Shown: positions 26,137 through 29,265 of the stretch, one piece after another | Position numbering within the stretch: position 1 is the stretch's first letter | Layout: every line of letters starts with the position of its first letter | Assembly (NCBI RefSeq): GCF_000376225.1 | Contig: NZ_AQXL01000103.1 | Coordinates: 1-32,376, forward strand | DNA length: 32,376 nucleotides | Origin: Effusibacillus pohliae DSM 22757 | GTDB taxonomy: Bacteria; Bacillota; Bacilli; Tumebacillales; Effusibacillaceae | Direction: 5' to 3' | Notes under the pieces: model-generated | What the model saw: the letters and a program-made list of their open reading frames with translations, nothing else | Told to the model about the DNA's origin: nothing | Databases searched by the model: none | Program-made: the position numbers and the translations under genes

Positions 26137-27030
26137 ATGAAGGTGTCGTTGTTCATCACCTGCCTGGCGGATTCGTTTTATCCGCATGTCGGGGAGAGTG
26201 TGGTCCGGCTGTTGGATTGGTTGGGGGTGGCGGTCGATTTTCCAATGGGACAAACCTGTTGCGGCCAGCCGGCGTTTAACTCGGGTTACCGGGATGAAGC
26301 GAAGAATGTGGCAAAAACGATGATAGAAGCGTTTGCACAAAGCGAATATGTGGTAGGGCCGTCCGGATCGTGCGTCGGCATGATTCACCACTACTATCCG
26401 CTGTTGTTTGAGGGAGATGAGAAGTGGGAGGCAAAGGCTCGCAAGTTTGTCAACAAGACGTACGAATTGACGCAATTTATTGTCAACGTGCTGGGAAAAG
26501 TGGATTTGTGTGCCCGGGTCGAGGCAACGGCCACCTATCACCCGTCCTGTCATGCGATGCGCATCATGGGGGTGAAGCATGAGCCGTTGCAGTTGCTCCA
26601 AAATGTGCGCGGACTGGAACTGGTCGATCTGCCGTTTGCGGAAGACTGCTGCGGTTTCGGTGGCACGTTCGCGGTCAAGATGCACGAAGTGTCCGGCGCG
26701 ATGGTGGCGGAAAAAGCGCAGCATGTACAGGAAACGGAAGCGGAGATTTTGGTCGGTACTGACATGGGGTGCCTGATGAACATCGGCGGCCGTTTGCGGT
26801 ACGAGGGGTCTCCCGTCCGGGTGATGCACATCGCGGAGCTGTTGTGGGAAGGCGTGCAGGAAGTACCCAGAGGGCATATAGGGCGACTTGGCAATTTATT
26901 GCCAAAGCGCCACTTATACTCTTTGAGTACAAGTCGCGTCACGACAGCAAAGCTGTCGGATCGCGCTATGCACCCAGAGGGCACAAGTCGCGTCACGACA
27001 GCAAAGCTGTCGGATCGCGCTATGAGGTGA
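26137..27030 (+). CDS. lutA: L-lactate utilisation protein LutA with a repeat-derived tail
   Basis: A protein of 297 residues; the family is usually near 240. It begins MKVSLFITCLADSFYPHVGE and has the two CCG domains: CCGQPAFNSGY near residue 45, and CHAMRIMG then DCCGFGGTFAVKM near 170. LutA is the subunit of the LutABC complex that oxidises L-lactate to pyruvate with Fe-S clusters. The family part ends near MHIAELLWEG (about 240). The following 57 residues come from palindromic elements: a diverged inverted copy, then two copies of TSRVTTAKLSDRAM (residues 265-278 and 283-296). The stop follows two codons after the last copy. ATG 26137 is set by GGAGGAG. This tail should not be needed for catalysis, though it may still be tolerated or used. 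Confidence 0.92.
   Translation: MKVSLFITCLADSFYPHVGESVVRLLDWLGVAVDFPMGQTCCGQPAFNSGYRDEAKNVAKTMIEAFAQSEYVVGPSGSCVGMIHHYYPLLFEGDEKWEAKARKFVNKTYELTQFIVNVLGKVDLCARVEATATYHPSCHAMRIMGVKHEPLQLLQNVRGLELVDLPFAEDCCGFGGTFAVKMHEVSGAMVAEKAQHVQETEAEILVGTDMGCLMNIGGRLRYEGSPVRVMHIAELLWEGVQEVPRGHIGRLGNLLPKRHLYSLSTSRVTTAKLSDRAMHPEGTSRVTTAKLSDRAMR
26865..26876 (+). repeat. 12-bp direct repeat, left copy
   Basis: ACCCAGAGGGCA here is identical to 26972-26983. The two copies enclose the inverted pair of palindromic units and look like a target-site duplication or a recombination product. Confidence 0.75.
26878..26921 (-). repeat. Palindromic coding element, diverged inverted copy (A)
   Basis: Read on the minus strand it starts GAGTATAAGTGGCG and ends TCGCCCTAT. 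It matches the ends of the forward copies, GAGTACAAGTCGCG and TCGCGCTAT, with one base fewer in the middle. Its own hairpin, TTGGCAAT (26888-26895) with ATTGCCAA (26898-26905), is unrelated in sequence to that of the other copies but has the same position. It is read through in the lutA frame. Confidence 0.6.
26929..26970 (+). repeat. Palindromic coding element, copy B (in lutA)
   Basis: A 42-bp unit, ACAAGTCGCGTCACG then hairpin CGACAGC-AAA-GCTGTCG (26942-26958), ending GATCGCGCTATG. It is exactly 14 codons in the lutA frame and encodes TSRVTTAKLSDRAM. It is identical to copy C. With copy A it forms a near-symmetrical inverted pair around TTT 26922-26924. Confidence 0.9.
26972..26983 (+). 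repeat. 12-bp direct repeat, right copy
   Basis: Identical to 26865-26876. The last base is the first base of element copy C. Confidence 0.75.
26983..27024 (+). repeat. Palindromic coding element, copy C (end of lutA)
   Basis: Identical over 42 bp to copy B, 54 bp (18 codons) downstream and in the same frame. The hairpin (26996-27012) ends 22 bases before the lutB ATG. The last ATG of the unit is followed by AGG TGA, which gives lutA its stop and lutB part of its ribosome binding site (GAGGTGAG). Confidence 0.9.
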
Positions 27031-27034
27031 GAGT

Positions 27035-28555
27035 ATGAGCAGCAAACCGGCGGCACCGTTTAAGGAACGGATTCGGCGCGCGATTGCGGACGAAGCGCTG
27101 ATCAAAGCGGTGAAATTTACGACCGACCGGCTGGAAAGCGGCAAACTTGCTTCCAGCGCGGCGCTGGGCAACTGGGAACAGTGGCGGGAACAAGGCAGAC
27201 GAATTCGCTCCCATGTGGTGCAACATCTCGATTATTACCTGGGCCAATTGATTGAAAATGTCAAAAAGCGCGGCGGACATGTCCATATCGCCGACACCGC
27301 GCAGGAAGCAGTCGATATTTTCCTGCAGATTGCACGGGAGAAAAATGCGAAGAGCGTTCTCAAATCAAAATCGATGGTGTCGGAAGAGGTGCACCTCAAC
27401 AAAGCACTGGAGGAATTCAGTGTCAAGGTGATCGAGAGCGACCTCGGCGAATATATCATTCAGCTGTTCGGCGAAGCGCCGTCCCATATCATCATTCCGG
27501 CCATTCACAAGAAACGGGGCCAGATTGCGGAGAAATTTTCCGAGATCAGCGGAAAACCCATTTCGGAAGACACGCCGACGCTGGTGAAATTCGCCCGCGA
27601 ACAGCTGCGCAAGGAATTTTTGACGGCCGATATCGGTGTCTCGGGCTGCAACTTTGCGATTGCCGAATCGGGTTCAATCGTCATGTTTACGAACGAAGGG
27701 AACGGCCGGATGATCACGACCCTGCCGCCGGTGCATGTGGCGTTTATGGGCATGGAAAGGCTGCTGCCGTCATTCGAGGATCTCGAGACGTTCGTGAACC
27801 TGTTGCCGCGCAGTGCGACCGGACAAAAAATCACGACGTACGTGTCGGTGATGAACGGTCCGCGGCAGGCGGGCGATCTGGACGGAGCGCAGGAATTTCA
27901 CCTGATCATTGTGGATAACGGGCGCAGCGGGATTTTGGGTGATGACGAGTTCCAAGAGGTTCTCAACTGCATCCGCTGCGGCGCGTGCCTGAACGTCTGT
28001 CCGGTCTACCGCCAGATCGGCGGACACGCCTATGGCGATGTGTATCCGGGGCCAATCGGTGCTGTGCTGACGCCGCTGCTGCGCAACGATATGGAGACAT
28101 GGGGCGATCTGCCCTACGCATCAAGCCTTTGCGCTGCATGCACGGACGCTTGTCCGGTGAAAATACCGCTGCATGACATGCTGGTTCACCTGCGCGCCCG
28201 CAAGGTCAGAATGGGCTTGACGCCCCGATGGGAACGGCTGGCGTTCAAAGCGTGGAGCGGTACCTTTGCGAAACCTGGGCGCTACCGGCTGTCGATGAGA
28301 GCGGCACGGATGATGGTGCCGTTGATCGCGAAAGACGGATTTATCGAAAAAGGGCCGCTTCACCTGCTGGGCTGGACGCATGCGCGCCATTTTCCGTCAC
28401 CCGCGAAGCAGACGTTCCGTGAACAGTGGAGCCGGATTGCGGCGGAACTGACGGCGGGGAAGCGGAACGCCGGTGAGGCGTTTGATAGTGCGGGTGGAGA
28501 GAGGGCGTCAGAAGGCGGTGCAATGGACGACGGGAAAGGAGGACGGACGGAATGA
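27035..28555 (+). CDS. lutB: L-lactate utilisation Fe-S protein LutB
   Basis: A protein of 506 residues. The N-terminal LUD domain (about 60-300) has VSEEVHLNKALEEFSVKVIE and SGCNFAIAESGSIVMFTNEG. Two ferredoxin-type clusters follow: CIRCGACLNVCPV (Cys 312, 315, 318, 322) and CAACTDACPV (Cys 366, 369, 373). It passes electrons in lactate oxidation to pyruvate. ATG 27035 lies 4 bases after the lutA stop, with GAGGTGAG as ribosome binding site; this site directly abuts palindromic copy C. The last 45 residues are a charged Gly/Glu/Ala tail. The 3' end overlaps lutC by 4 bases. Confidence 0.93.
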   Translation: MSSKPAAPFKERIRRAIADEALIKAVKFTTDRLESGKLASSAALGNWEQWREQGRRIRSHVVQHLDYYLGQLIENVKKRGGHVHIADTAQEAVDIFLQIAREKNAKSVLKSKSMVSEEVHLNKALEEFSVKVIESDLGEYIIQLFGEAPSHIIIPAIHKKRGQIAEKFSEISGKPISEDTPTLVKFAREQLRKEFLTADIGVSGCNFAIAESGSIVMFTNEGNGRMITTLPPVHVAFMGMERLLPSFEDLETFVNLLPRSATGQKITTYVSVMNGPRQAGDLDGAQEFHLIIVDNGRSGILGDDEFQEVLNCIRCGACLNVCPVYRQIGGHAYGDVYPGPIGAVLTPLLRNDMETWGDLPYASSLCAACTDACPVKIPLHDMLVHLRARKVRMGLTPRWERLAFKAWSGTFAKPGRYRLSMRAARMMVPLIAKDGFIEKGPLHLLGWTHARHFPSPAKQTFREQWSRIAAELTAGKRNAGEAFDSAGGERASEGGAMDDGKGGRTE

Positions 28556-29265
28556 ATAAGGAACAAGCGTTTCTGGAGCGGATCGCCAAACGGTTGGGGC
28601 GGACGGAACCACTCAGGCAAAAGCCGGAACGGGATGTGGTGGGAGCACCTGGCTTCTGGCGCGAATTCCGGCTTTCGACGGGGGAGAAGATCGGGCGGTT
28701 TTGCGAAAGCTGGCGAGCGCTGACCGGCGTGGCGGAAGTGGTGGACTCGGATGAGCAGGCGATCGAGGTACTGAAACGCTGGGTGCAGGAAGAAAATCTG
28801 CAGCGGCTGGTTCGCTGGGACCACCCGGAATTGGAGAAGCTGGGAATCGATGAAGCGTTGGCCCGGGATGGCGTACAGGTGGAAGTGTGGAGCACAAGTC
28901 GCGTCACGGCAGCAAAGCTGCCGGATCGCGCTATGATCCAGATGGTGAACGAAGCGGATGCGGGGATTACCTGGGTGGATTACGCGGTGGCCGATACGGG
29001 AACGGTGTGTCTGTTCTCATCGCCGGGCAAGGCTCGCTCAGTCAGCCTGCTGCCGCCGATTCACATCTCGATTTTTCGGGCTGAACAGCTGGTCACCCGG
29101 ATCGGCGAGGTCCTCGCCAAGCTCGACGATATGAACCGGCAAAGCGCGTTGCCGGCCGGCGTCAATTTTATCACCGGCCCGTCCCGCAGCGCCGACATCG
29201 AAAACGATCTGTCGATCGGTGTCCACGGCCCGAAAAAAGTGTACGCGCTGATCATTCGCAGCTAA
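28552..29265 (+). CDS. lutC: L-lactate utilisation protein LutC with an in-frame repeat insert
   Basis: A protein of 237 residues with the LUD/LutC domain: ADAGITWVDYAVADTGTVCL, SPGKARSVSLLPPIHISIF and NFITGPSRSADIENDLSIGVHGPKKV as in LutC. Residues 115-128 (TSRVTAAKLPDRAM) come from palindromic copy D. It is inserted between a strand ending VQVEVWS and the helix starting IQMVNEADAG, most likely in a surface loop. The sequence on both sides continues the family pattern, so the gene remains functional in frame. ATG 28552 overlaps the lutB stop (ATGA). It is the last gene of the operon, before the terminator at 29276-29336. Confidence 0.92.
   Translation: MNKEQAFLERIAKRLGRTEPLRQKPERDVVGAPGFWREFRLSTGEKIGRFCESWRALTGVAEVVDSDEQAIEVLKRWVQEENLQRLVRWDHPELEKLGIDEALARDGVQVEVWSTSRVTAAKLPDRAMIQMVNEADAGITWVDYAVADTGTVCLFSSPGKARSVSLLPPIHISIFRAEQLVTRIGEVLAKLDDMNRQSALPAGVNFITGPSRSADIENDLSIGVHGPKKVYALIIRS
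28894..28935 (+). repeat. Palindromic coding element, copy D (inside lutC)
   Basis: Same 42-bp unit and the same 14-codon frame as copies B and C, 40 of 42 bases identical. The two changes are the two sides of one hairpin base pair: CGGCAGC-AAA-GCTGCCG (28907-28923) instead of CGACAGC-AAA-GCTGTCG, so A-T became G-C and pairing is kept. Confidence 0.9.

Follow-up and report, generated by a model that had tools for sequence, protein, structure and literature searches.

The 32,376-nt window analysed here is contig C103 of the source genome (G000, Effusibacillus pohliae DSM 22757; 3.36 Mb in 135 contigs). It carries the genes lutA, lutB and lutC, within and between which lie copies of a short palindromic repeat. 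This repeat proves to belong to a genuine palindromic family of Bacilli, dispersed and lineage-specific, whose copies can sit in frame within genes and are apparently tolerated there. The features of the locus are given below, where R1 denotes a covariance model that we built from ten copies (the best 150 candidates being scored per genome) and conservation refers to a 41-copy family alignment.

26137..27030, plus strand: lutA, 297 residues, extended through the array; Pfam CCG domain
26864..27024, plus strand: lutA-lutB array, 161 nt, three hairpins, abutting the lutB Shine-Dalgarno sequence
26864..26876, plus strand: left mini-stem TACCCAGAGGGCA, with ACCC..GGGC conserved
26877..26917, minus strand: diverged family palindrome; R1 38.5 bits, E = 1e-8; DNA fold z = -4.5
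26918..26928, plus strand: mini-stem ACTCTTTGAGT, read from the sequence
26929..26970, plus strand: hairpin unit 1; R1 69.3 bits; DNA fold z = -4.0
26971..26982, plus strand: linker CACCCAGAGGGC, 12 nt, conserved
26983..27024, plus strand: hairpin unit 2; R1 69.3 bits
27035..28555, plus strand: lutB; Pfam LUD_dom and LutB_C
28552..29265, plus strand: lutC, 237 residues; Pfam LUD_dom
28894..28935, plus strand: hairpin unit 3, inside lutC, encoding TSRVTAAKLPDRAM; R1 71.9 bits

An earlier reading of the window, made from the letters alone (the sequence-only reading), had described three separate 42-bp units, two in lutA and one in lutC. We found all three where it had placed them, and their 17-nt palindromic core has five matches in the window at three mismatches or fewer (both strands counted) against 0.17 expected. 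The lutA pair, however, is part of a three-hairpin array that also includes the diverged minus-strand palindrome, in the order mini-stem, diverged hairpin, mini-stem, hairpin, linker, hairpin. Likewise, although the 42-bp unit is present, the repeat period is 54 nt, made up of the 42-nt unit and the 12-nt linker. Units 1 to 3 are 93-96% identical to a reference copy over 46 nt, and two of the three 42-bp units fold as DNA with z = -4.0 and -4.8. In unit 3 the left linker is absent or degenerate, GAGC occupying 28890-28893. A search of positions 26700-29100 with Rfam covariance models returned no relevant match (one irrelevant match had E = 0.77).

The units in lutA had been read as an extension of the LutA tail. 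The extra residues are there, but they originate from read-through of an array at the lutA-lutB junction: LutA residues ~243-297 correspond to the array, and the LutA of congeners aligns to residues 1-241/242. The lutA-lutB gap is 0-11 nt in three congeners, and the empty site of G002, GGGAAG^GGGTGA (GGGAAG^GGGTGAAAGCATG), can be set against the filled site of G000, GGAAG^[array]^AGGTGAGAGTATG. The array was inserted in the lutB ribosome-binding site, and LutA therefore reads through it; judged by this comparison between genomes, the LutA units arose between genes.

Empty sites were found well beyond lutA-lutB. Nine sites filled in G000 are empty in the compared congeners, namely those at lutA-lutB, lutC, dnaE, pcrA, cca, queA, pheA, lipA and a YlbJ-like gene (pheA was compared with G001 and G002 only, and a tenth gene, L072, was left out). 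R1 gave no match at E ≤ 1 across 32 orthologous loci, and the alignments concur. Four of the junctions are clean, with pre-insertion triplets AAG, TTG, GTG and ATG. Besides lutA-lutB, these are the dnaE junction (ATTTTG^ in G000 and the same in G001 and G003), the queA junction (GTGTG^, as in G003) and that of the YlbJ-like gene (CATG^ versus AATG^ in G003). The insert ends in TATG at the clean junctions, except in dnaE, where it ends in TTTG. None of the four has a target duplication of fixed length, and 1 to 4 end bases are shared. Among 57 distinct left flanks, which include a few chance pattern hits, G occupies position -1 in 42 and A or T occupies position -2 in 47. Of two ribosomal RNA (rRNA) leaders of G000, L092 resembles an empty site and L078 a filled one (ACAAG^TAACGC).

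Our comparisons also identified copies inside genes, a possibility that the sequence-only reading had raised: in addition to LutC, we found in-frame copies in DnaE (NF005298), PcrA (TIGR01073) and Cca (NF009814). The LutC unit is absent from 10 of 10 relatives. It had been described as an insert of 14 residues; the insert is indeed in frame, but congeners G001-G003 are shorter there by only 7 residues, and this net gain implies that the insertion was accompanied by loss of native sequence. DnaE has 17 extra residues that are absent from 5 of 5 relatives, with an exact junction and a weak R1 match (E = 0.041). PcrA holds a complete 54-nt unit, the peptide TSRVTAAKLPDR being assigned to both LutC and PcrA, and the ~25 extra residues of Cca are absent from 4 of 4 relatives. 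Further matches that we followed from a peptide search for in-gene copies were intergenic or already known. As far as sequence comparison can tell, in-frame insertion of the kind described for Rickettsia palindromic elements (RPE) occurs in G000. Selection for one frame had also been proposed, and it is not supported: four of the five in-gene sites (LutA, LutC, PcrA and DnaE) are read in frame +1 and Cca in +3, five of the unit's six frames are open and the sixth contains stops, and the sites are too few to sustain such a claim.

The unit itself is ~54 nt long and consists of the mini-stem ACCCAAAGGGC followed by a hairpin ending in CTATG. The consensus of the 41-copy alignment reads ACCCA(A/T)AGGGCACAAGTCNCGC, a variable hairpin, and GGTCNCGCTATG; lengths in this set range from 49 to 55 nt, and the dnaE copy has 51 nt. 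Head-to-tail repeats at ~54 nt reach five consecutive units in G001 and six in Kroppenstedtia. We studied the stem in 36 of 72 distinct cores, selected for similar length and drawn from the genus of the window and from G020-like copies. Pairing holds in 94.7% of cells, compared with at most 47.6% for slid partners, and double changes occur at all ten pairs, with 50 double-change cells against 13.4 in shuffled data. In the inner stem, G-U (7) and A-C (9) combinations are equally rare among 432 cells, which favours a palindrome maintained at the DNA level over a constraint on RNA. In copies from Thermoactinomycetaceae and Brevibacillus, the two flanking motifs are directly repeated, and the palindrome at the centre is weaker. 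Some copies were also seen in larger contexts. In the single-contig Kroppenstedtia genome (G212, L159-L163), a repeat of ~300-450 bp whose inverted ends are AGGGTGTGTCTG-like, delimited by eye, holds 1 to 4 units, the number differing between copies. In Brevibacillus-like genomes (L164-L167) the unit lies within a conserved composite of ~150 bp with an extra stem on its left, and in G001 both units of L109, at 3892 and 11057, are followed by TTTGAGCGAAGCGAGTTTAG, perhaps as part of a larger composite element.

With respect to distribution, the sequence-only reading had proposed looking for copies elsewhere in the genome, and R1 finds 41 matches in G000 at E ≤ 1, 38 of them at E ≤ 1e-3. Among relatives, the congeners G001, G002 and G003 have 46, 7 and 2 matches, and G020, which is more distant, has 14. 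Eleven of 16 relatives outside the genus have no R1 match at E ≤ 1; G020 is a true bearer, and weak matches occur in G008, G009 and G012 (E 0.05 to 0.26) and in G013 (best E 0.034). An exact pattern retrieved 26 stretches, with 8 in Kroppenstedtia, 6 in Paludifilum, 5 in Melghirimyces, 4 in Brevibacillus and 1 in Marinithermofilum; the two in Hydrogenophaga and Legionella are probably due to chance. A wider model built from the 41 copies, R2, identified bearers at E ≤ 1e-4 in 22 of 398 Bacilli genomes, spanning 11 of 145 genera and five families; it scored the best 14 candidates per genome, and copy numbers derived from it are lower bounds. We rejected carriage by phages, plasmids or viruses, given that the exact pattern had no match in viral contigs (one of eight scans) and that, by blastn, the Kroppenstedtia array had no match among phages or plasmids and the G001 array none among phages. 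Literature searches, including with sequence strings of the unit, retrieved no paper describing the family.

The sequence-only reading had proposed a protein-coding repeat family, and the view that the element is mainly of this kind is not supported. Using 87 of 90 R1 matches (the three weakest omitted) and a home-made gene caller, we found 28 of 33 clusters in G000 and 25 of 27 in G001 to lie outside called genes. The two G001 clusters called in-gene are, on inspection, closely followed by a ribosome-binding site and a start codon and look like over-extended gene calls, leaving no convincing in-gene copy in that genome. Of 44 intergenic clusters next to a called gene, 31 are oriented towards the downstream gene (15:6 in G000, 16:7 in G001). 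Moreover, in 13 of 29 entries, compared with 5.5 expected, no more than 18 nt separate the right end of the unit from the start codon, and GAGG often follows that end directly; these entries were hand-picked from the placement list, with L108 and L113 omitted, the L117 distance set by eye and the L089 value of -2 set to 0. Such placement is suggestive of a lean towards Shine-Dalgarno sites. Units also lie upstream of 16S rRNA genes (L077, L078, L079, L082, L083 and L092 in G000; L111 in G001), and in G001 between 16S and 23S. In rRNA leaders, AAGTCGTTCTTTG before GAAAACTG resembles the right half of the unit. Upstream of queA in G000 (L076, 4208), a unit sits in the loop of an apparent terminator hairpin, GGGCGTGTG..CGGCACGCC. 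Overall, the sequence-only reading finds partial support, the coding role being secondary, and neither of the outcomes that it had named as contradicting it, residues of ancestral origin or a lack of further copies, was seen.

We consider it probable that each unit is a copy of a small palindrome that is mobile but non-autonomous, built of hairpin modules that insert 3' of a triplet ending in G. The module would be a DNA hairpin with a T(A/T)(T/A)G-like end that inserts 3' of a similar triplet. Because the end of the unit resembles its own target, one insertion could be followed by the next, so that the target would be recreated each time and head-to-tail arrays would grow. Most modules would land between genes, and many landings would apparently fall within a Shine-Dalgarno sequence (AAG^GAGG-like) or immediately ahead of one. 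Copies inside genes could survive as 17-18 extra residues, since the commonest unit has 54 nt (51 in dnaE) and stops in one frame of six; the added peptide would be tolerated, rather than functional. Movement may be by transposition of a single-strand type, with the enzyme supplied in trans. Insertion 3' of a short motif, lack of a fixed duplication and a hairpin foot are traits of single-strand transposition in IS200/IS605 insertion sequences (IS) and in the system of repetitive extragenic palindromes (REPs) and their tyrosine transposases (RAYTs). A bolder proposal, which we put forward only tentatively, is that the hairpin, moved by some enzyme via single-stranded DNA, targets ribosome-binding sites (AAG^GAGG-like), and that its length of 3n allows replication and repair proteins of Firmicutes to acquire extra peptides, an RPE-like route of protein evolution with an origin independent of the known tagged REPs.

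Several observations weigh against a mobile palindrome of this kind. No mobiliser was found: the Y1 transposase domain Y1_Tnp is present in 17 of 22 bearers and absent from five, including the single-contig G212, and Y2_Tnp (PF04986) occurs in 2 of 22, on which count we rejected a Y2 (IS91/Helitron-like) mobiliser. The TTTG at both ends of the dnaE insert might instead represent a short target duplication, the LutC insertion is not clean, and the linker that holds the PcrA unit differs among six relatives. In the 36 cores, one covariation measure, the number of further pair types (15 versus 13.9 shuffled), did not exceed shuffled data. Many copies in Thermoactinomycetaceae and Brevibacillus lie within larger repeats and may have spread with those. 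Lastly, once four doubtful entries are dropped, the excess near the start codon shrinks, 9 of the remaining 25 entries lying there where 4.9 are expected (P ≈ 0.027), and the null for the Shine-Dalgarno excess ignores selection.

It has to be asked, then, whether the units are better explained otherwise. A Y1 HUH transposase of the RAYT or IS200/IS605 type could mobilise a REP-like element, a possible but doubtful account. The hairpin with its foot tetranucleotide and the mode of insertion would fit it, G000 has one intact tnpA/tnpB pair, and Y1_Tnp is commoner in bearers than in non-bearers (17 of 22 versus 199 of 376, p = 0.028), a weak association. However, Y1 is lacking in the five bearers mentioned above, the consensus has no GTAG or CGTC tag, and no unit adjoins a Y1 gene in 12 loci (of 17 listed). 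One of these 12 has a unit within ~1.5 kb (L105, ~1.4 kb), and the RAYT link raised by the sequence-only reading was not found. Alternatively, the hairpins before ribosome-binding sites and in rRNA leaders could be transcribed regulatory or mRNA-processing RNA that shapes expression and is kept for its function. The orientation of clusters towards downstream genes, the tendency of right ends to lie near start codons, and the copies before 16S and in the 16S-23S spacer all agree with this idea. We nevertheless regard it as unlikely: the region searched (26700-29100) has no relevant Rfam match, G-U is not in excess over A-C, contrary to a constraint on the RNA strand, none of the nine sites is conserved in the compared congeners, and the in-gene copies are left unexplained. 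As for ancestral coding sequence or chance similarity, by which the 14 residues would be native to LutA and LutC, we found nothing in its favour and give it practically no credence, given that the LutC residues are absent from every relative compared, the lutA-lutB gap of three congeners is 0-11 nt, and this DNA is also found in unrelated genes and between genes.

The family acts like RPEs and REPs yet is distinct from both. In passages of PMC2229807 and PMC10969869, RPEs are palindromic repeats found between genes and fused in frame within unrelated conserved protein genes, to which they add a peptide, a likeness shared here by LutC, DnaE, PcrA and Cca; they differ in size (105-146 bp versus 49-55 nt), and the present family occurs in Bacilli, lies mostly between genes and builds head-to-tail arrays. 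REPs of the GTAG and CGTC superfamilies, as portions of Di Nocera 2013 (PMC3733652) present them, are, like the present family, short, imperfect, dispersed hairpins, mainly intergenic, in dimers and clusters and sometimes in genes, with intragenic hosts that include UvrD/Rep helicases and the DnaE of Rickettsia conorii, to be compared with PcrA and DnaE here. Unlike those REPs, our family has the unit feet ACAAGT and CTATG in place of a tag, no RAYT neighbour in the 12 Y1 loci, and a right end that tends to lie near the downstream start codon, whereas the uni-REPs of PMC3733652 sit close to where the gene upstream ends (3' end). The words Firmicutes and Brevibacillus are absent from the main text of that paper. 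Miniature inverted-repeat transposable elements such as bcr1, RUP and Correia (in part PMC2229807) are likewise small, non-autonomous, dispersed and near gene starts. In contrast to these, the present unit starts with (C/T)ACCC and ends with CTATG, with no terminal inverted repeats, and shows no fixed-length duplication at the four clean junctions. IS200/IS605-derived elements have a subterminal hairpin and insert 3' of a short target without duplication. The present family resembles them in both respects and differs in the five bearers with no detectable Y1 transposase, and no IS with matching ends was found. Rickettsia and a few other bacteria are the best-known cases of palindromic inserts read in frame within conserved proteins. 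The inserts in DnaE, PcrA, Cca and LutC, together with the empty sites of congeners, make both the movement of such an element and its tolerance testable in a free-living organism.

Additionally, we observed a second palindromic repeat type, CCCCGCCAAGTGCTTGCACTTGGCGGGG, in G000, at 3955-4038 of L080 (contig C134), before 4019 of L081 (C100) and at 4453-4532 of L094 (C128); in two cases a repeat of this type is inserted in the hairpin loop of a family unit.

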